From contig NZ_JAHWDP010000002.1 of assembly GCF_019312585.1 (NCBI RefSeq), positions 496,001-560,000 of the forward strand: a stretch of DNA of 64,000 nt, written 5' to 3'. The translations under genes and the position numbers were made by a program. Every line of letters starts with the position of its first letter. Position 1 is the first letter of the stretch. The notes under the pieces were generated by a model, which was not told the origin of the DNA, did not search any database, and saw nothing but the letters and a program-made list of their open reading frames with translations. Positions 45,766 to 53,826 of the stretch are shown here, piece by piece. This stretch comes from Halomarinibacterium sedimenti (GTDB lineage Bacteria > Bacteroidota > Bacteroidia > Flavobacteriales > Flavobacteriaceae).

Positions 45766-46422
45766 ATGCTAAAAGCAGTTCTTTTTGATATGGATGGGGT
45801 GATTGTAGATACCGAACCCCTACACCGTAAGGCCTATTTTAAGATGTTTGAAGAAATGAATATTCCCGTTTCTGAAGCGCTTTACACCAGCTTTACAGGA
45901 CAAAGCACCCTAGAGATTTGCCAAACATTAGTAAGCACCTTTTCGCTTACCCAAACCCCACAAAGCTTAGTGGTGTGTAAACGCAAGCATTTTAAATATT
46001 TATTTGAACACGACAACCCCCTCCAACTGCTCCCTGGAGTGTTGGAGTTAATACAGGACTATTACCATAACGGACTTACCCTCGTACTCGCCTCCTCGGC
46101 GTCGATGACCAATATTAACCGAATTTTTGATCGCTTTGACCTTAACAAATACTTTGTCGCCAAACTAAGCGGTGCCGACCTTGCCAAAAGCAAACCCCAC
46201 CCCGAAATTTTTATCAAGGCCGCTCAAGCCTCGGGACACTCCAAAGCACAGTGTATGGTGATTGAGGACTCTACCAACGGCATTGCCGCTGCGAAAAGTG
46301 CTGGGATATTTTGTGTGGGTTATAACAGCCTCCATAGCGAAGACCAAGACTATAGCCTAGCCGATAAGGTGGTGGGAGATTTTAGGGAATTGGGATTTGA
46401 GAGAGTGAAGGGGTGGGTTTAA
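45766..46422 (+). CDS. HAD-superfamily phosphatase/phosphoglucomutase-like
   Basis: A 218-residue HAD hydrolase of the beta-phosphoglucomutase/phosphatase subgroup. Motif I is FDMDGVIVDTEPLH (nucleophile Asp8, Asp10), motif II LASSAS, motif III KSKPHPEIF and motif IV VIEDSTNGIAAAKSAG. The cap between residues 16 and 80 is helical. Substrates in this subgroup range from sugar phosphates to pseudouridine 5'-phosphate, and none can be chosen here. It lies 10 bp after the M14 gene, probably co-transcribed. Confidence 0.9.
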   Translation: MLKAVLFDMDGVIVDTEPLHRKAYFKMFEEMNIPVSEALYTSFTGQSTLEICQTLVSTFSLTQTPQSLVVCKRKHFKYLFEHDNPLQLLPGVLELIQDYYHNGLTLVLASSASMTNINRIFDRFDLNKYFVAKLSGADLAKSKPHPEIFIKAAQASGHSKAQCMVIEDSTNGIAAAKSAGIFCVGYNSLHSEDQDYSLADKVVGDFRELGFERVKGWV

Positions 46423-46490
46423 TTTATTTCAAAAATATCAATGGGAAGTTCTCCTGTTTTTTGGGAATAGGTGTTTGGTTTTATTTAATG

Positions 46491-47024
46491 CTAACGCCCA
46501 TTTTTTAGGGTTAGATAATCATTTTCAAACATGAATAAAACTTTTTCGGGAGGAGGTTTCATTTCATAATCTGGATCACTGTTCATAAGAATTTCGGTCA
46601 TACTCTGTGCTTTTTTGTTTTTCCAAAATCCAGCTTTTGTGAATCCTATGGCGCATATTTGGTTATTTTGCTTAAAGGTTTGTCTATGATATACCCATTT
46701 GTCATCTGAGCCTTCTAATTTTAAGGTGATGTCAAACTTTTTAAACATTCTTAGGGGCTTTTTGTATATAATTTTTTGGGATGCTAAAACACCAAACATG
46801 CCTTTTTTTATAGTATTCTCATACAGCTTTGACCGAAAAACTACTTCGTATCGAATTAGGTCCATATAGTAGAAATATTTTGAATTAGCCATAAACCGAA
46901 AGGATTCGCAATCCAAAATATTAACTCTTCTTGTCCGAGTTAACTTAGAAGTAGGTTTAACTTTTTTCCAGAATATTCTTGACCCAATGTAGATATAGAT
47001 CATGTGTACCCAATAATAAATCAT
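46491..47024 (-). CDS. Hotdog-fold acyl-CoA thioesterase-like protein
   Basis: A 177-residue protein resembling the 4-hydroxybenzoyl-CoA/THEM6-like thioesterase group. FRFMANSKYFYYMDLIRYEVVFRS carries the central helix with a D-x-x-R pattern. Strands such as KPLRMFKKFDITLKLEG, WVYHRQTFKQ and CAIGFTKAGFWK follow. The usual catalytic Asp near the helix N-terminus is replaced by Asn/Ser (MANSKYF), so activity is uncertain. The N-terminus is hydrophobic (YYWVHMIYIYIG) and a second in-frame ATG exists at 47003. Confidence 0.65.
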   Translation of the reverse strand: MIYYWVHMIYIYIGSRIFWKKVKPTSKLTRTRRVNILDCESFRFMANSKYFYYMDLIRYEVVFRSKLYENTIKKGMFGVLASQKIIYKKPLRMFKKFDITLKLEGSDDKWVYHRQTFKQNNQICAIGFTKAGFWKNKKAQSMTEILMNSDPDYEMKPPPEKVLFMFENDYLTLKNGR

Positions 47025-47106
47025 AGTTTAGAATTTTAGTTTTTAGTCCTTATGTTTCTGAGATTCAAAATTACTTTCAGCTTGGTGTATCCTCAAAACC
47101 AATGTG

Positions 47107-47592
47107 TTAATCCAATTTTGTCTTTATTAATTGTTCAATTTCGTTAAAGGATTGGTTTCTGGCTTGGTCCTGCCACAGATAAATGAGGATATTTTCAGAC
47201 AAAAATATCTTGCCGTTGGGATCATTAGGATTATTTGCAAGCATATCCTTTTTTATTTGTTTGGCAACTTCTGGTGAACTCGTTTCTAAGCCAAAAATGC
47301 CAATTTCAGAAGTATCTTCATAGACTGAAAACAAGCCTTTTTCGATATCGGGTACTAAGGTTGAACCTAGATGCATCATGCGCATAAAACATACTAAAAA
47401 ATCAGAATCTGAAGAAATAAAGGGATTGGATTGAATACCACAAGGCAACTTGTCACTACTCAGTATGGGTTTCAATTTACATCCCCTAGGAAGTTCTTGT
47501 TCTGAAAAAATAAAGTCTTCTAATGCTACATTTGAAATAGTAGGGTTTTGAAAACATAAAACACTCAAAATAATAACAAATACTAATTTCAT
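47107..47592 (-). CDS. Hypothetical exported protein
   Basis: A 161-residue protein with a signal peptide (MKLVFVIILSVLCFQNPTIS). I do not recognise a family. It has three Cys in the mature part (GCKLK, PCGIQ, VCFMR). The C-terminal half (EVAKQIKKDMLANNPNDPNGKIFLSENILIYLWQDQA) reads like a small alpha/beta domain. It lies between the thioesterase and the lipase genes on the same strand. Confidence 0.6.
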   Translation of the reverse strand: MKLVFVIILSVLCFQNPTISNVALEDFIFSEQELPRGCKLKPILSSDKLPCGIQSNPFISSDSDFLVCFMRMMHLGSTLVPDIEKGLFSVYEDTSEIGIFGLETSSPEVAKQIKKDMLANNPNDPNGKIFLSENILIYLWQDQARNQSFNEIEQLIKTKLD

Positions 47593-47678
47593 AGTGACGA
47601 AATTTTTAATAACAAATCAGAAAATATACCTCCAAAAGGTATACTATAGTACTTGCTAAAATAAGGATTTACCATTAC

Positions 47679-48713
47679 TTATTTGGCACAGGTCAATGGA
47701 CCAGACCCCAACCATTTTAAATAATGGTTATGAGCGTGTTGCTGTCCCACTTGTTCAAACCACTGTTCCAATGGGTCTTTTCCTGTAACAGAGAAAATCT
47801 CTTTTCCCGTATTGAGCGCAATACTTCCTCTATACTGATTTACAGGCGTGTACCAAGATTTATTTATGGCTTCACTTATATCTAATGATGCTTGAATAGC
47901 ATCACAAGCTTCGGCTAGACTAACTGTAATTCCATCGTAGGTAACAGTAATATTGTGTGCATTTGGTGCTGGAGATGGGAATAAATTCCCTACGCCTATA
48001 ATATTGGTTGCCGAATAAGGCACGACATCAATTTCGTTATAATAACGCCATGTATGTGTTAAGTTGGCATCAAATTGTTCTGCAAAACCTGCATTCCATG
48101 AACAAGGGGCGGCAAAAGTGAGAATCGAAAAAATGGTTGGCATTGTGTATCCACCTTTTAATAATTCGTATTGTAACCAAGGCCCTACAATGGTTGCAGA
48201 ATTGGCGCCAAGGCTATGTCCTGTTATGCAAATCCATTTTTCTTGAGGAAAAGCATTTTTTTGTAGAAAACTTAACATGGTATCACCATTATTATCTACC
48301 AACTGCATTAAATTGGTAAGAGATTCGCTTGAACCTTTCGAAATCTTAGGATTAATGCTAGTATCGTCGGTATACGTCCATGGTACCTGTGTAAATAAAT
48401 TAAAGTCTTGTTTAAACCAATTATCGAATGCACCCCACGAAAAATTTAAAATCGAGCCTCGAATGGCAATTACATATTGAACACCATTATATGCTATAAA
48501 GGCCCAATCTCCCTGAATAGCTTGAACAGGCTCCCAAACAAGTTGCCAACTAGGCAAATATTGTTTTAAGGTATTTTTTACGGAATTGGAACCGTCTAAT
48601 GAACAATAAGTAATAGATGCCATTTGCATGGCAATTACATCGCCTATGGCTCTTGAATTTGTATCTTTTGTATTTTGAAATCCGCTACCAATACTTTCTA
48701 CTTCTGTTTTCAT
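47679..48713 (-). CDS. Class 3 lipase-family protein
   Basis: A 344-residue alpha/beta hydrolase of the lipase class 3 (fungal/plant triacylglycerol lipase) type. The nucleophile elbow is CITGHSLGANSATIVG (Ser near 166), preceded by YVIAIRGSILNF, the oxyanion strand. An Asp is present in YYNEIDVVPYSA, and a His follows in APNAHNITV. There is no signal peptide, so it is probably cytoplasmic or exported by another route. It starts 12 bp after the stop of the PsiD-like decarboxylase gene, and the two look like one operon. Its substrate is not known. Confidence 0.82.
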   Translation of the reverse strand: MKTEVESIGSGFQNTKDTNSRAIGDVIAMQMASITYCSLDGSNSVKNTLKQYLPSWQLVWEPVQAIQGDWAFIAYNGVQYVIAIRGSILNFSWGAFDNWFKQDFNLFTQVPWTYTDDTSINPKISKGSSESLTNLMQLVDNNGDTMLSFLQKNAFPQEKWICITGHSLGANSATIVGPWLQYELLKGGYTMPTIFSILTFAAPCSWNAGFAEQFDANLTHTWRYYNEIDVVPYSATNIIGVGNLFPSPAPNAHNITVTYDGITVSLAEACDAIQASLDISEAINKSWYTPVNQYRGSIALNTGKEIFSVTGKDPLEQWFEQVGQQHAHNHYLKWLGSGPLTCAK

Positions 48714-48724
48714 AATGTTTAGTT

Positions 48725-49978
48725 TTATGGAATTACCGTAGCAATTCGTGAGTTAATTTTAATATTACTAGAATTTAAACCCGGTTTTTGACCATGAAAG
48801 TCAAAATCGAGTTTTACATGAGGTTGAAAAATTAAGCAATGCGTAGAGCCTCCAAAATGAAACATTCCTATCTCCTCTCCTTTTTCTACGTGTTGTCCTT
48901 CGTACACGGTAATGTCGCAAGTAGATACTTCAGCCATTCCTACGGGCATAAAACACATGAGCCCAATGGCGGGATTATCGGCTTCAATAAAGATTAAGGC
49001 TCTTGTAGCGACCTCGGTAATATACCCCTGCGATTTATTAGGCCCCGAAGGATCGTAGCCTTCGGCCAAGGTTTCCGAATAATAGGTGCCGTCAATCACA
49101 TAGGCTTTTTTTATAGTGCCGCTTACAGGGCTATGCCAACGATGGTAACTCAAGGCGCTTAAAAAGGCTTGGTATACGGTACCGTTTTCAAATAATTGGG
49201 TGTAGGGATCGTGATTGAGCATATGCGACAAGGCATAGGGTTGTCCTTTAATCCAAAAGGTGTTTTGTAGTGGTACATTTACACTTTTTCGGTAGGGTGC
49301 CGACTCACACGCGTTTACAATCACGTTGTCATCTTCAGGACTCGCCACAGGCCGAATGCCTTCTCTAAACTCGCGTGTAAAGAAATCGTCCCAGGAGGTA
49401 AATCCGTAATGCGGTAGCGTGGGATCGCACACAAAGTCTTCGATAAAGGTGGGCATTGCTTTTTTGGCATCTTCCCCAAACCATCCACTACGCGGATTTT
49501 CATTCAGCACATAGGCAGAGTCTTTTGAGTCTAGAAATTTTCCCCATTCGTTAAGCACCTTTTTTAATTGTGCATTAAGGCGAGGGTCCAAAAACGCAGC
49601 AAAACCAGCCGAGGTTCCCATGCTATAATCAAAAATGGCATTAATAGGGAATCCCACCAAACCCGTTTCATTATATTCGGGAGCTTTGGTTATAATGGTA
49701 TTGATGAGTTCCAGTGCATGCAAATAATTACGCACTTGCGGACCTCCGGCAGGATTGTGCTTGTATTTCTCTGGCACTTGCTCAAACATAAGGTTAAAAA
49801 GCATATACAGTTTGGCATCACCTTCAATTAAATTTTTTAAATCCTCTACGACAGGATGCCACTCTTTTGGGGTATTGTCTACCTCAACAATAAGATCCTT
49901 TAACCAATTTTGAAGAAATTTTACATCACTGGGTAACCATTCGCCTACACGATAGGGAGTATTCATTTGTACATCCAT
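48725..49978 (-). CDS. Phosphatidylserine-decarboxylase-family protein, PsiD-like
   Basis: A 417-residue pyruvoyl-type decarboxylase. The self-cleavage site is GGST (Ser378, in GMFHFGGSTH), where chain cleavage would create the pyruvoyl cofactor. The N-terminal domain (about 20-170) and motifs such as LPHYGFTSWDDFFTREFR, ACESAPY, HMLNHDPYTQLFENGTVYQ and LSYHRWHSPVSGTI are, from memory, close to fungal L-tryptophan decarboxylase PsiD. They are unlike the shorter membrane PSDs. No membrane helix is visible. It may decarboxylate an amino acid rather than phosphatidylserine; this is inferred. It is followed by the lipase gene. Confidence 0.85.
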   Translation of the reverse strand: MDVQMNTPYRVGEWLPSDVKFLQNWLKDLIVEVDNTPKEWHPVVEDLKNLIEGDAKLYMLFNLMFEQVPEKYKHNPAGGPQVRNYLHALELINTIITKAPEYNETGLVGFPINAIFDYSMGTSAGFAAFLDPRLNAQLKKVLNEWGKFLDSKDSAYVLNENPRSGWFGEDAKKAMPTFIEDFVCDPTLPHYGFTSWDDFFTREFREGIRPVASPEDDNVIVNACESAPYRKSVNVPLQNTFWIKGQPYALSHMLNHDPYTQLFENGTVYQAFLSALSYHRWHSPVSGTIKKAYVIDGTYYSETLAEGYDPSGPNKSQGYITEVATRALIFIEADNPAIGLMCFMPVGMAEVSTCDITVYEGQHVEKGEEIGMFHFGGSTHCLIFQPHVKLDFDFHGQKPGLNSSNIKINSRIATVIP

Positions 49979-50092
49979 ATTACTGCTTTTTTGTTATACT
50001 CAAAGCTAAATGTAATCCGCTACAATTCAAGTAAGTACAAATACGTAATTCTCGAATTCAAATTTTCTTCGGAAAATTTAAAGTCAAAAATG

Positions 50093-50100
50093 TATCTTTA
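50093..50100 (+). promoter_or_regulatory. Promoter -7 box of the TPR lipoprotein gene, near-leaderless
   Basis: TATCTTTA, one base from TAnnTTTG, ends five bases before the ATG at 50106. A clear -33 TTG is not seen. Confidence 0.4.
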
Positions 50101-50105
50101 ACCTC

Positions 50106-51047
50106 ATGGAAAAACTCCTATTTTTATTCTGCGTTTTAAGCTTTTTAGGCTGTAAAAATCACTCTGAAGAAGTTGAAATTTCCAATGATTGGAATCATCC
50201 CTATCAAGCGATTGCTCAAAGTGGCGATACTTTATTTTCAGCAACACCAGATGAAAAACTTTCGGCTCAATACCTAGAAAAGAAAAAAGCCTTCGAGAAA
50301 GACCCAGACAGTTTAGAAAATTTGATATGGTATGGTCGCTTTCAAGCCTATACTGGAGATTATCGTAAGGCTATTGCGATTTACAGTTACGGATTGGAGC
50401 AGTTTCCTAACCAACCAAGATTGTTGCGCCACCGTGGCCACCGATATATAACAGTTCGTGAATTTGACAAAGCCATAGCCGATCTTTCTCTTGCGGCTGA
50501 ACTTATAAAAGATACCGAAAACCAAATTGAAGAGGATGGCATGCCCAACGCACAAAACATCCCTGTGAGTACTTTGCATGGGAATATTTATTACCATTTG
50601 GGATTGGCCTATTACCTAGACCGCCAATTACCTAAAGCCTTGGATGCTTTTAAATCCTGTTTATCAACCTCAAATGCTCCAGATAATGTGGTTTCGGCAA
50701 CGCACTGGATTTATATGATACAAAACCGAATGGGTCGCAAAGAAGCGGGAGATAATTACCTTCGGAATATAAAACCAGGCATGAACGTAATTGAAAACAC
50801 CACCTATTATCAGGCGTGTCTTTTTTACAAAGGGGAAATTCCGTTAGAGGAATTATATCCTTTCCCAACAGAAGAAAGTGCTTCAAACAGTGCCTTAAAA
50901 TATGCCATTGGAAATTGGGTTTGGTATAACGGAAACCCACAAAAAGGAATGGAAATTTTTGAAGAAATCTTAAAAGGCAATGATTGGGCTTCCTTTGGCT
51001 ACATCGCCGCCGAAACAGATTTAGCGAAACCGTATATCCAAAGGTAA
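50106..51047 (+). CDS. TPR-repeat lipoprotein
   Basis: A 313-residue lipoprotein; the lipobox LSFLGC gives a lipidated Cys at residue 16. Tetratricopeptide-like helices occur at about 75-110 (WYGRFQAYTGDYRKAIAIYSYGLEQFP), 110-145 (LRHRGHRYITVREFDKAIADLSLAAEL) and 168-200 (YYHLGLAYYLDRQLPKALDAFKSCL). Such proteins scaffold other proteins in the envelope. The TonB receptor gene follows 88 bp later on the same strand. No enzymatic motif is seen. Confidence 0.85.
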   Translation: MEKLLFLFCVLSFLGCKNHSEEVEISNDWNHPYQAIAQSGDTLFSATPDEKLSAQYLEKKKAFEKDPDSLENLIWYGRFQAYTGDYRKAIAIYSYGLEQFPNQPRLLRHRGHRYITVREFDKAIADLSLAAELIKDTENQIEEDGMPNAQNIPVSTLHGNIYYHLGLAYYLDRQLPKALDAFKSCLSTSNAPDNVVSATHWIYMIQNRMGRKEAGDNYLRNIKPGMNVIENTTYYQACLFYKGEIPLEELYPFPTEESASNSALKYAIGNWVWYNGNPQKGMEIFEEILKGNDWASFGYIAAETDLAKPYIQR

Positions 51048-51135
51048 ATAGTAATAGGACACTTTATTTTTTCTCAAGATAATTTTATTCAATAAAAAAA
51101 GGTAATTTAGGTATGTAAACAAACAACCTAACATT

Positions 51136-53826
51136 ATGAAAAAAATTATTTTTGGTATGCTTTTTTGCCTTATGGGCTTCTCAGTACTTTCTCAAACTAC
51201 CGTAAAAGGAGTTATTAAAGACAACAACAACATTCCTCTTTCAGGTGTGAATGTGGTAGAAAAAGGAACTTCCAATGGAGTTACAAGCGATTTTGATGGT
51301 AAGTATTCTCTTCAAGTTTCTGAAAATGCAGTGTTAGAATTTAGCTATGTAGGTTTCGAAACCCAAGAAATGGCTGTAAATGGGCAAAGTGAGATAAATG
51401 TAATTCTCACGGAAGGATTTCTGCTGGATGCAGTACAATTAGTGGGTTCACGTAGCTCCAAACGCACCGCCACGGACACCCCTGTTGCGATCGATATAAT
51501 AGATGTACAAAGTGTTACAACACAAGCTGGTAAAATAGAAATTAATGAGTTGTTACAATACGCAGCTCCTTCTTTTAATGCTAATAAACAATCTGGATCT
51601 GATGGAGCAGACCATATTGATCCTGCTTCACTGAGAGGATTAGGTCCCGATCAAACATTGGTGCTTATTAATGGTAAAAGAAGACACCAATCTTCTTTGG
51701 TTAATATCTTTGGAACAAGAGGTCGTGGTAATACGGGAACCGATTTAAACGCAATACCAGCATCGGCTATAAAGCGTATAGAAATTTTAAGAGATGGTGC
51801 TGCTGCGCAATATGGCTCTGATGCTATTGCTGGGGTCATAAATATTGTATTAAAAGATACCACGGATGAGGTAACAGGGTTTGTAAATTATGGTGCCTAT
51901 AGTACCAATGCCGATGTAGATACTAGTGCATTTGCCGAAGACGATTATGGAGTTTGGAATACCGATGGTTTTCGTTTAGAAACCGATACTGACGGAAATA
52001 AAATTGGATCGGATCAAAGTTTTGATGGAGGTTCTGTGAAAGCTGGTGTTAACTATGGAGTGGCATTAGGTGAAAAAGGAGGTTTTGTAAATTTCACAGG
52101 AGAATACCTAAAGAAAAATAAAACACTACGTCCTGCATTCGATTTTAGAAAAGGATTTGGAGAAGCAGCAATTGAAGGGTTTAATTTTATGGGAAACCTT
52201 GTTCTTCCTGTTAGTGAATTTACAGAAATCTATGCCTTTGGAGGAAGAAACTATAGAGATACCGATGCCTATGCTTTTACTCGAAATGGCGGTGCTCGTG
52301 TGATTCCTTCAATTTATCCTAATGGATTTACACCAAGAATTACCTCAAATATTATAGACAATTCTGTTTCTTTTGGGGTAAGAACCGATTTAGGAAACGA
52401 ATGGAAAGCCGATATTAGTAATACTTGGGGAAAGAACAACTTTCACTATTTTATAAAAGGCACCCTCAATGCTTCCTTGGGAGCAACTTCCCCTACCGAT
52501 TTTGATGCTGGTGGGCACTCGTTAAGTCAAAATTCATTTAATGTCGATTTTTCAAAATATTTTGAAGATGTTGCCAGTGGTTTAAACCTTGCATTTGGTG
52601 CAGAATATCGTACCGAAAGATTTACCATTTTTGCTGGAGAACCTGGCTCTTATGGCACTTTTGATGAGGATGGAATTATCATCACCAATCCAGCAACACA
52701 AACTCAGCCGGTAGATCCTATTTCTGGAGATCCTAGACCAGGAGGGTCTCAAGGATTTCCTGGGTATAGCCCAGCCAATGAAGTAGATAGAAGCAGGTCT
52801 AACGTATCCTTATATACAGATGCTGAAGTAGATATTTCGGATGCATTTTTATTAAGTGGTGCTGTACGTTACGAAAACTATAGCGACTTTGGAAGTACGT
52901 TAAACGGTAAATTAGCTACTCGAATTAAAGCGTCTGATGATGTTAATGTGAGAGCTTCCGTAAGTACTGGTTTTAGAGCCCCATCACTCGTTCAAATTTA
53001 TTACAACTTAAGATTTACCAACTTTGTTGGAGGAGAAGCCTTAGAGTCTGTATTATCGCCAAACAATAGCCCTGTAACTAGATCTTTTGGAATTGGACCG
53101 CTACAAGAAGAAACTGCCTTTAATGCTGGATTAGGAGTTACAGGAAAATTTGGAAGCTTTACGGCTACGGTAGATGGTTATTTTATAAGTATTAAAGACC
53201 GTATTGTATTAACCGGAAATTTTGATGCTACCAACATTCCAGGGGTAGAAGCTGCACAGTTTTTCGCTAACGGAGCCGATACAGAAACTTTAGGTTTGGA
53301 TGTCGTTCTCTCTTATAGAACAGCCCTTGGTAATGGAACCTTTAATGCTGCATTTGTAGGGAACTTAAATGATATGGAAATTACCAAAGTAAAAAATGGA
53401 AGCTTAGACGAACAGACCTTTTTTGGAGAAAGAGACAAATACTTTTTATTGGCTTCTGCTCCTGACAGTAAATTTGGTTTAAATCTTATGTACGCCATCG
53501 ACAAATGGAATTTCGCCGTTTCTGAAACTCGCTTTAGCGAAGTACAACTTTTAGATTTTCAAATGTTTGAAGATCCTGCAGATTATGGTGGTTTTAATAA
53601 CCTAGTTGCAGCAGCTACAGATACCTACGGAGCAAAATTTGTAACAGATTTAACCATTGGATATCAACTTTCAGAGGGTGTTAAGTTAAGTATTGGAAGT
53701 AACAACTTATTTAACGTTTACCCAGACCAACAAGATGACTGGACCGAAGCAGGAGGATATTGGGATTCTGTACAAATGGGATTTGGCGGAGCCTATTACT
53801 TTGGACGTTTGGATTTCAATTTTTAA
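51136..53826 (+). CDS. TonB-dependent receptor with carboxypeptidase-regulatory domain
   Basis: An 896-residue outer-membrane transporter. The signal peptide (to about 19) is followed by a beta-sandwich carboxypeptidase-D-regulatory-like domain (about 22-100, KGVIKDNNNIPLSGVNVVEKG). The plug domain (about 115-235) has LRGLGPDQTLVLINGKR and RIEILRDGAAAQYGSDAIAGVIN. A 22-stranded barrel ends in RLDFNF, with the terminal Phe. A TonB-dependent import role for a siderophore, vitamin or oligomer is known for the family. No SusD partner follows, so it is more like a siderophore or small-molecule receptor than a glycan one; the ligand is not known. Confidence 0.93.
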   Translation: MKKIIFGMLFCLMGFSVLSQTTVKGVIKDNNNIPLSGVNVVEKGTSNGVTSDFDGKYSLQVSENAVLEFSYVGFETQEMAVNGQSEINVILTEGFLLDAVQLVGSRSSKRTATDTPVAIDIIDVQSVTTQAGKIEINELLQYAAPSFNANKQSGSDGADHIDPASLRGLGPDQTLVLINGKRRHQSSLVNIFGTRGRGNTGTDLNAIPASAIKRIEILRDGAAAQYGSDAIAGVINIVLKDTTDEVTGFVNYGAYSTNADVDTSAFAEDDYGVWNTDGFRLETDTDGNKIGSDQSFDGGSVKAGVNYGVALGEKGGFVNFTGEYLKKNKTLRPAFDFRKGFGEAAIEGFNFMGNLVLPVSEFTEIYAFGGRNYRDTDAYAFTRNGGARVIPSIYPNGFTPRITSNIIDNSVSFGVRTDLGNEWKADISNTWGKNNFHYFIKGTLNASLGATSPTDFDAGGHSLSQNSFNVDFSKYFEDVASGLNLAFGAEYRTERFTIFAGEPGSYGTFDEDGIIITNPATQTQPVDPISGDPRPGGSQGFPGYSPANEVDRSRSNVSLYTDAEVDISDAFLLSGAVRYENYSDFGSTLNGKLATRIKASDDVNVRASVSTGFRAPSLVQIYYNLRFTNFVGGEALESVLSPNNSPVTRSFGIGPLQEETAFNAGLGVTGKFGSFTATVDGYFISIKDRIVLTGNFDATNIPGVEAAQFFANGADTETLGLDVVLSYRTALGNGTFNAAFVGNLNDMEITKVKNGSLDEQTFFGERDKYFLLASAPDSKFGLNLMYAIDKWNFAVSETRFSEVQLLDFQMFEDPADYGGFNNLVAAATDTYGAKFVTDLTIGYQLSEGVKLSIGSNNLFNVYPDQQDDWTEAGGYWDSVQMGFGGAYYFGRLDFNF

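Follow-up and report, generated by a model that had tools for sequence, protein, structure and literature searches.

A bacterial PsiD-type pyruvoyl decarboxylase, most likely for arginine, in Halomarinibacterium sedimenti

PsiD is a member of the psilocybin gene cluster and is an L-tryptophan decarboxylase (8x4q, 8zia). Chlamydia encodes AaxB, a PvlArgDC-family pyruvoyl enzyme that decarboxylates arginine, together with the antiporter AaxC. The phosphatidylserine decarboxylase (PSD) of E. coli (7cnw, 6l06) acts on a phospholipid. The arginine decarboxylase (ADC) of A. oryzae (9jer, 9jf5, 9jfn) is described in PMC12283126, which cites Murakami et al. 2024, as pyruvoyl type and as an example of one among at least five convergent forms. 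The window analysed here, a 64,000-nucleotide stretch of the H. sedimenti genome (NZ_JAHWDP010000002.1, positions 496,001 to 560,000), encodes a bacterial member of the family that contains PsiD and the fungal ADC. The evidence makes it reasonably probable that this protein is itself an arginine decarboxylase. The features of the locus are:

48725..49978, minus strand: gene for a PsiD-type pyruvoyl decarboxylase of 417 aa, most likely an arginine decarboxylase (open reading frame, domains, alignment to 9jer, fold match)
49454..49858, minus strand: PSDC N-terminal domain PF12588, residues 41-175 (profile match)
48809..49390, minus strand: catalytic PS_Dcarbxylase domain PF02666, residues 197-390 (profile match)
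48845..48847, minus strand: codon of Ser378, the predicted self-cleavage and pyruvoyl residue in GGST (alignment to the two 9jer chains; invariant in a 25-row alignment)
47679..48713, minus strand: Lipase_3 gene on the same strand, lying downstream of the decarboxylase gene after an 11-bp gap (profile match)

The decarboxylase gene runs from an ATG at 49978 to a stop that ends at 48725 and has no internal stop. The protein matches PSDC with 171.1 bits (cut-off 23.4; E 1.8e-50) and PF02666 with 132.5 bits (cut-off 22; E 2e-38), and contains the motifs SKDSAYVL, LPHYGFTSWDDFFTREFR, ACES, DPYTQLFENG, SYHRWHSPVSG and GMFHFGGST. Ser378 is the last residue aligned to the first chain of 9jer, and the short chain, 9jer_E, covers residues 379-414. 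No transmembrane-like segment was found in the protein by a 19-residue Kyte-Doolittle scan (maximum mean 1.41), and the enzyme is probably soluble and cytosolic. A sequence-only reading of this DNA, which left the strand unstated, had proposed a decarboxylase with a pyruvoyl-type self-cleavage site at Ser378, an extra N-terminal domain and no membrane helix. The intact reading frame with every motif it quoted, the two-chain alignment, the PSDC profile match and the hydropathy scan bear out these proposals.

The domains, the cleavage motif and the conserved blocks of the catalytic domain are visible in the sequence itself, and homology to the solved enzymes suggests how the protein would work. 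The chain would fold and then cut itself before Ser378 of GGST, converting Ser378 to a pyruvoyl group. The pyruvoyl group and the amino acid substrate would form a Schiff base, followed by loss of CO2 and uptake of a proton. The most likely reaction is the conversion of L-arginine to agmatine, which in H. sedimenti could be converted to putrescine by an agmatinase encoded elsewhere in the genome. In relatives linked to an antiporter, exchange of arginine for agmatine could give a proton-consuming acid-stress cycle, and in the operon of one such relative (L104) agmatine could pass on to AguA and AguB.

Full-length copies that are 79-82% identical to the window protein occur in three other Flavobacteriaceae records. 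Compared with L003, the window gene has 77, 42 and 225 differences at codon positions 1, 2 and 3, respectively, a pattern indicating that the gene is maintained, as under purifying selection. The Lipase_3 and decarboxylase genes are possibly co-transcribed. The region 47000-50300 contains six promoter-like sites (10.5 in shuffles) and three terminator-like sites (2.1 in shuffles), and no Rfam match reached the gathering score within 46000-52000. Lipase_3 matches of more than 60 residues in the fetched loci were limited to the window's own copies (L002, L030, L060). Since the gene is unmatched in the loci of other relatives, it is probably not a functional partner of the decarboxylase and was rejected as an operon partner.

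The window protein is about equally distant from the two fungal enzymes. It is 46.0% identical to A. oryzae ADC and 45.7% identical to PsiD (phmmer E 2.8e-77 against 9jer and 4.6e-75 against 8x4q), and the two fungal enzymes are 34.0% identical to each other. Sequence alone does not decide between arginine and tryptophan. The predicted model of the window protein (mean pLDDT 82.6; below 50 at residues 1-13 and 301-321) aligns over 314-322 residues with PsiD (Z 31.2), 9jer (Z 29.7) and 9jf5, which contains arginine (Z 29.6), and PsiD is the top Foldseek match. The slight lead of PsiD in Foldseek and in Z was counted against arginine. The next family in the fold comparison is E. coli PSD (Z 14.8).

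Both domains of A. oryzae ADC align with the window protein (residues 10-378), and the GGS site is common to the two. Unlike the window protein, the enzyme is fungal, carries inserts and has YHCWN in place of YHRWH. Its complex with arginine has been solved, whereas arginine as the substrate of the window protein is something we infer. PsiD belongs to the same family and has the same fold, but its substrate is tryptophan and it lacks N113, W196, F241-W242, Y269 and Q317, which are common to the bacterial proteins and A. oryzae ADC. In 40 bacterial rows, 136 columns reach 90% conservation or more, and 18 of these columns touch a gap; 25 are retained by A. oryzae ADC but not by PsiD, and 17 by PsiD but not by A. 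oryzae ADC. At the level of alignment columns there is no clear specificity signature. E302 and D117 were considered as guanidinium ligands and rejected, because antiporter-linked copies change both residues (Q302 in L104; N117 in L020, L068 and L070); these changes were also counted against the arginine reading.

A tree of 66 rows places the window protein in a 55-row branch (100/100) apart from 11 PSD-like rows, which were picked as the outgroup; the tree is limited by long branches and by PSD-like rows that include no experimentally proven PSD. The window protein is thus not placed inside the phospholipid PSDs, in agreement with the earlier proposal of a PsiD-type two-domain decarboxylase outside that group. 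Four rows form the window clade (100/100), and the antiporter-linked rows fall outside it. Long, weakly supported branches (83/81 and 83/89) place PsiD and A. oryzae ADC among the bacterial rows, and neither adjoins the window clade. Flavobacterial PSD-like proteins of 395-446 aa (L037-L042, L044, L045, L058) form their own branch. The tree leaves out the window copies (W, L002, L030, L060), copies of L003 and of L005 (L031, L032), near copies (L019, L021, L062, L063, L065-L067), a broken frame (L013), partial sequences (L027, L064, L094, L101), PSD-like rows (L043, L046, L048-L055, L057, L059), short loci repeating longer ones (L078, L079, L085-L093, L095-L097) and L111. L001, which is the window genome's other PS_Dcarbxylase gene and had no tblastn match to the queries, is likewise absent.

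Bacterial gene contexts suggest a role in arginine and agmatine metabolism. An antiporter was sought by tblastn in 53 loci with a relative (27 scan loci, 10 plasmid regions and 16 further stretches), several of which have short flanks. A TIGR00905 antiporter scoring over cut-off is located directly upstream and on the same strand in five of the 53: a Pantoea plasmid (L020), Oxalobacter formigenes (L029), an Enterobacter plasmid (L068), a Photobacterium plasmid (L070) and L104 (genome G857). The best solved-structure match of the L068 and L104 antiporters is the arginine/agmatine antiporter AdiC, at low similarity. The gene order in L104 is aguB-aguA-antiporter-decarboxylase, with AguA at 546 bits (cut-off 382) and AguB at 445 bits (cut-off 410) against equivalog models. 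The L104 decarboxylase is 62% identical to the window protein and matches PSD models alone. A Lichenicola plasmid (L157) resembles this operon in carrying an antiporter, a gene annotated as pyruvoyl-dependent arginine decarboxylase, aguB and aguA; identity to the L104 proteins is 75% for AguB, 67% for AguA and 44% for the antiporter. Unlike the PsiD-type enzymes, the L157 decarboxylase belongs to the TIGR00286-like PvlArgDC family, with no PSD model listed; its match to TIGR00286 reaches 29 bits where the cut-off is 107, and its name comes from the annotation of the record. Given the homologous partners in L104 and L157, the slot of the PsiD-type enzyme seems to be taken by an unrelated ADC in L157, a view that draws partly on that annotation. 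Neither an antiporter nor aguBA adjoins the window gene, which differs in this respect from the L157 system.

An antiporter of this family is not enough to identify arginine as the substrate, since the family partners varied decarboxylases. Four plasmid regions encode antiporters 39-44% identical to that of L068 beside other decarboxylases: an ornithine decarboxylase with an arginine deiminase set, an Orn/Lys/Arg-type decarboxylase, a lysine decarboxylase with CadB, and a pyruvoyl histidine decarboxylase. The assignment to arginine comes instead from the aguBA genes in L104 and the L157 operon. Closer relatives of the L068 antiporter do accompany PsiD-type genes. It matches 130 plasmid records (E at most 1e-60), and among the matches listed four have at least 60% identity, namely the Enterobacter and three Photobacterium records, all with an adjoining PsiD-type gene; the remaining 36 listed are 36-45% identical. 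In a set of 150 genomes from the Oxalobacter order, Oxalobacter itself gave the top antiporter match (70%), followed by one at 43%. L070 shares 50-54% identity in the decarboxylase and 68-73% in the antiporter with the other four antiporter-linked loci, and on the tree the distribution of the antiporter requires two changes. On these grounds the pairing may have formed twice, with uneven rates as an alternative. The antiporter-decarboxylase pair of Enterobacter pUPC1 had no DNA match at blastn sensitivity in 5,426 E. coli genomes.

In L068 (1-9251), a conjugative Enterobacter plasmid, the antiporter-decarboxylase pair is preceded by evgA, an HdeD-family gene (129 bits, cut-off 189), yfdX and an efflux pump (EmrA/EmrK and DHA2 families, names taken from the record). 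The region looks like an acid-resistance island. In Caldimonas (L013, 8749-11254), the decarboxylase copy is split over two frames, and 37 bp before it ends a gene of the PAD_porph family (58.8 bits against a cut-off of 25), which is a weak agmatine deiminase match (26.8 versus 381.8 bits). Over whole genomes, there is no clear enrichment of AguA with the PsiD-type gene. AguA scores over cut-off in four of 22 genomes with the gene and two of 22 without it, and at E 0.001, where remote members and fragments count, in 12 and four, respectively. Co-occurrence of AguA was therefore rejected as support for arginine. Within the 22 PsiD-type-bearing genomes alone, SpeA is over cut-off in eight and agmatinase in 11. 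The presence of the antiporter in five of 53 loci, the lack of clear AguA enrichment and the lack of a clear specificity signature were all counted against the arginine reading.

The window genome (2,957,540 bases, 99.95% completeness) encodes a SpeA-like protein of 465 aa (159 bits, below the TIGR01273 cut-off), and its gene is grouped with two others, that of the agmatinase (221 bits against a cut-off of 174) beside it and one that we take to be deoxyhypusine-synthase-like. With this SpeA-like gene present, the window enzyme would be a second source of agmatine. No antiporter is present in the window and none was found in its genome with a query that matched five of eight other genomes; the search of the genome for AguA gave nothing beyond a 28-bit match. 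The SpeA-like gene, the agmatinase, the missing antiporter and the low AguA score weigh against arginine. The SpeA-like gene is present in 12 of 14 genomes of the window's family or order, and the two without it are Aureisphaera (G156) and G009, the latter with no PsiD-type match. Aureisphaera has a PsiD-type enzyme that is 79% identical to the window protein and falls inside the window clade, as well as an agmatinase (193.6 bits, cut-off 174.3), and SpeA, the ADC family searched there, was not found. This combination was counted in favor of arginine.

That the window enzyme acts on another amino acid, whether lysine, ornithine, histidine or one not found in proteins, is rather unlikely. In that case specificity would have shifted within the family, and the flavobacterial clade may differ from the antiporter-linked clades. 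The separation of the window clade from the antiporter-linked rows is consistent with such a shift, as are the absence of agmatine genes from the loci of the window clade, the occurrence of TIGR00905 relatives beside histidine, ornithine and lysine decarboxylases, and the ability of the family to take at least two very different substrates. However, the agmatine genes of L104 and the enzyme swap in L157 name arginine for a 62%-identical relative, and Aureisphaera, within the window clade itself, lacks SpeA yet has an agmatinase.

That the protein decarboxylates tryptophan or another aromatic amino acid, making tryptamine, seems improbable. Its identity to PsiD, the Z of 31.2, the top Foldseek match and the long blocks in common would all fit this activity, but identity to the arginine decarboxylase is equal and the gene contexts in bacteria are of the arginine type. 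PsiD lacks the residues listed above, yet keeps 17 others missing in A. oryzae ADC. The sequence-only reading had named tryptamine or decarboxylation of another amino acid. Tryptamine was dropped as first choice because 9jer is titled an arginine decarboxylase and because of the aguBA and antiporter contexts; the second half of that proposal is the better one.

E. coli PSD resembles the window protein in the fold of the catalytic domain (Z 14.7 over 220 residues, range 14.5-14.8), but is about 20% identical, has a phospholipid substrate and is a 253-residue chain that aligns mostly beyond window residue 136. It is highly improbable that the window protein is a PSD for phospholipid synthesis: although the catalytic domain is common to both and relatives in plasmid records are named 'phosphatidylserine decarboxylase family protein', all eight NCBIfam PSD models that match score below cut-off (best 100 bits against 371; TIGR00163 63 against 111.75), the protein has the PSDC domain and no transmembrane-like segment, some relatives have predicted Tat signals, and another gene of the genome encodes a PS_Dcarbxylase domain (142 bits).

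The relatives of this most likely arginine-decarboxylating enzyme are widely but patchily distributed. A scan of a genome collection revealed 27 loci with 57-82% identity to the window protein in Bacteroidota, Pseudomonadota, Acidobacteriota, Thermodesulfobacteriota, Lentisphaerota and Actinomycetota. PSDC is present in eight of 395 genomes of the window's phylum and, for the orders to which the Pantoea and Oxalobacter genomes belong, in 12 of 295 and five of 300, respectively (centre genome counted in each), and 24 of 72,556 plasmid records have a tblastn match at 1e-20. Such identity across phyla, together with the patchy occurrence, suggests that the PsiD-type family was spread by horizontal transfer. 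Among phages, the two matches were Acinetobacter phage genes named psd, with 27% identity over 46% of the query. Burkholderiales and Aeromonas-like copies are located among unrelated genes, which was counted against the arginine reading.

Several members stand apart from these patterns. L073-L077, L098-L100 and L102 are PSDC proteins, mostly from Burkholderiales, that form their own clade, and the plasmid copies L074-L077 are near Mn-catalase and ferritin-like or Ku/LigD genes. A Lactobacillus intestinalis plasmid copy (L069, 53% identity) lies between a glycerate kinase and a YSIRK surface protein, with no adjoining antiporter. One flavobacterial genome carries a tandem pair made up of a PS_Dcarbxylase gene and the gene of a PsiD-type relative (L115:6049-8664, minus strand).

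Some relatives may be exported. A twin-arginine motif is found in four of 50 bacterial members examined (L009-L012, sharing 66-69% identity with the window protein), and hydrophobic, export-type leaders of other kinds are seen in L008 and L026; starts were chosen by rule (the most upstream ATG or, for 14 added loci, the ATG nearest the match), so leaders may be missed or added. The Tat rows and L008 form one branch of the tree (99/99). A pyruvoyl enzyme needs no PLP, and activity outside the cytoplasm is therefore conceivable.

The window gene adds to a known kind of enzyme, and its antiporter-linked and predicted Tat relatives may be new. No report on bacterial PsiD-type arginine decarboxylases was recognised in the literature covered, which was partial and mostly outside subscription papers, and one may exist. 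As a tentative and possible generalization, several phyla would share horizontally spread arginine decarboxylases of the PSD fold that are labelled 'phosphatidylserine decarboxylase family protein'. On two or more occasions these would have gained a partner from a dedicated clade of arginine/agmatine antiporters, in one case together with aguBA and in one case within a plasmid acid-resistance island; one branch would be Tat-exported, as a PLP-free decarboxylase outside the cytoplasm, and fungal PsiD and ADC would descend from within the bacterial enzymes. If so, a family named after phosphatidylserine decarboxylase would be an amino acid decarboxylase family, and the recent fold class of arginine decarboxylase represented by the A. 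oryzae enzyme, as presented in PMC12283126, would have a broad bacterial side with transport partners. The gene set would allow arginine versus tryptophan specificity to be tested on one scaffold, and the predicted Tat members raise the question of PLP-free decarboxylation outside the cytoplasm.
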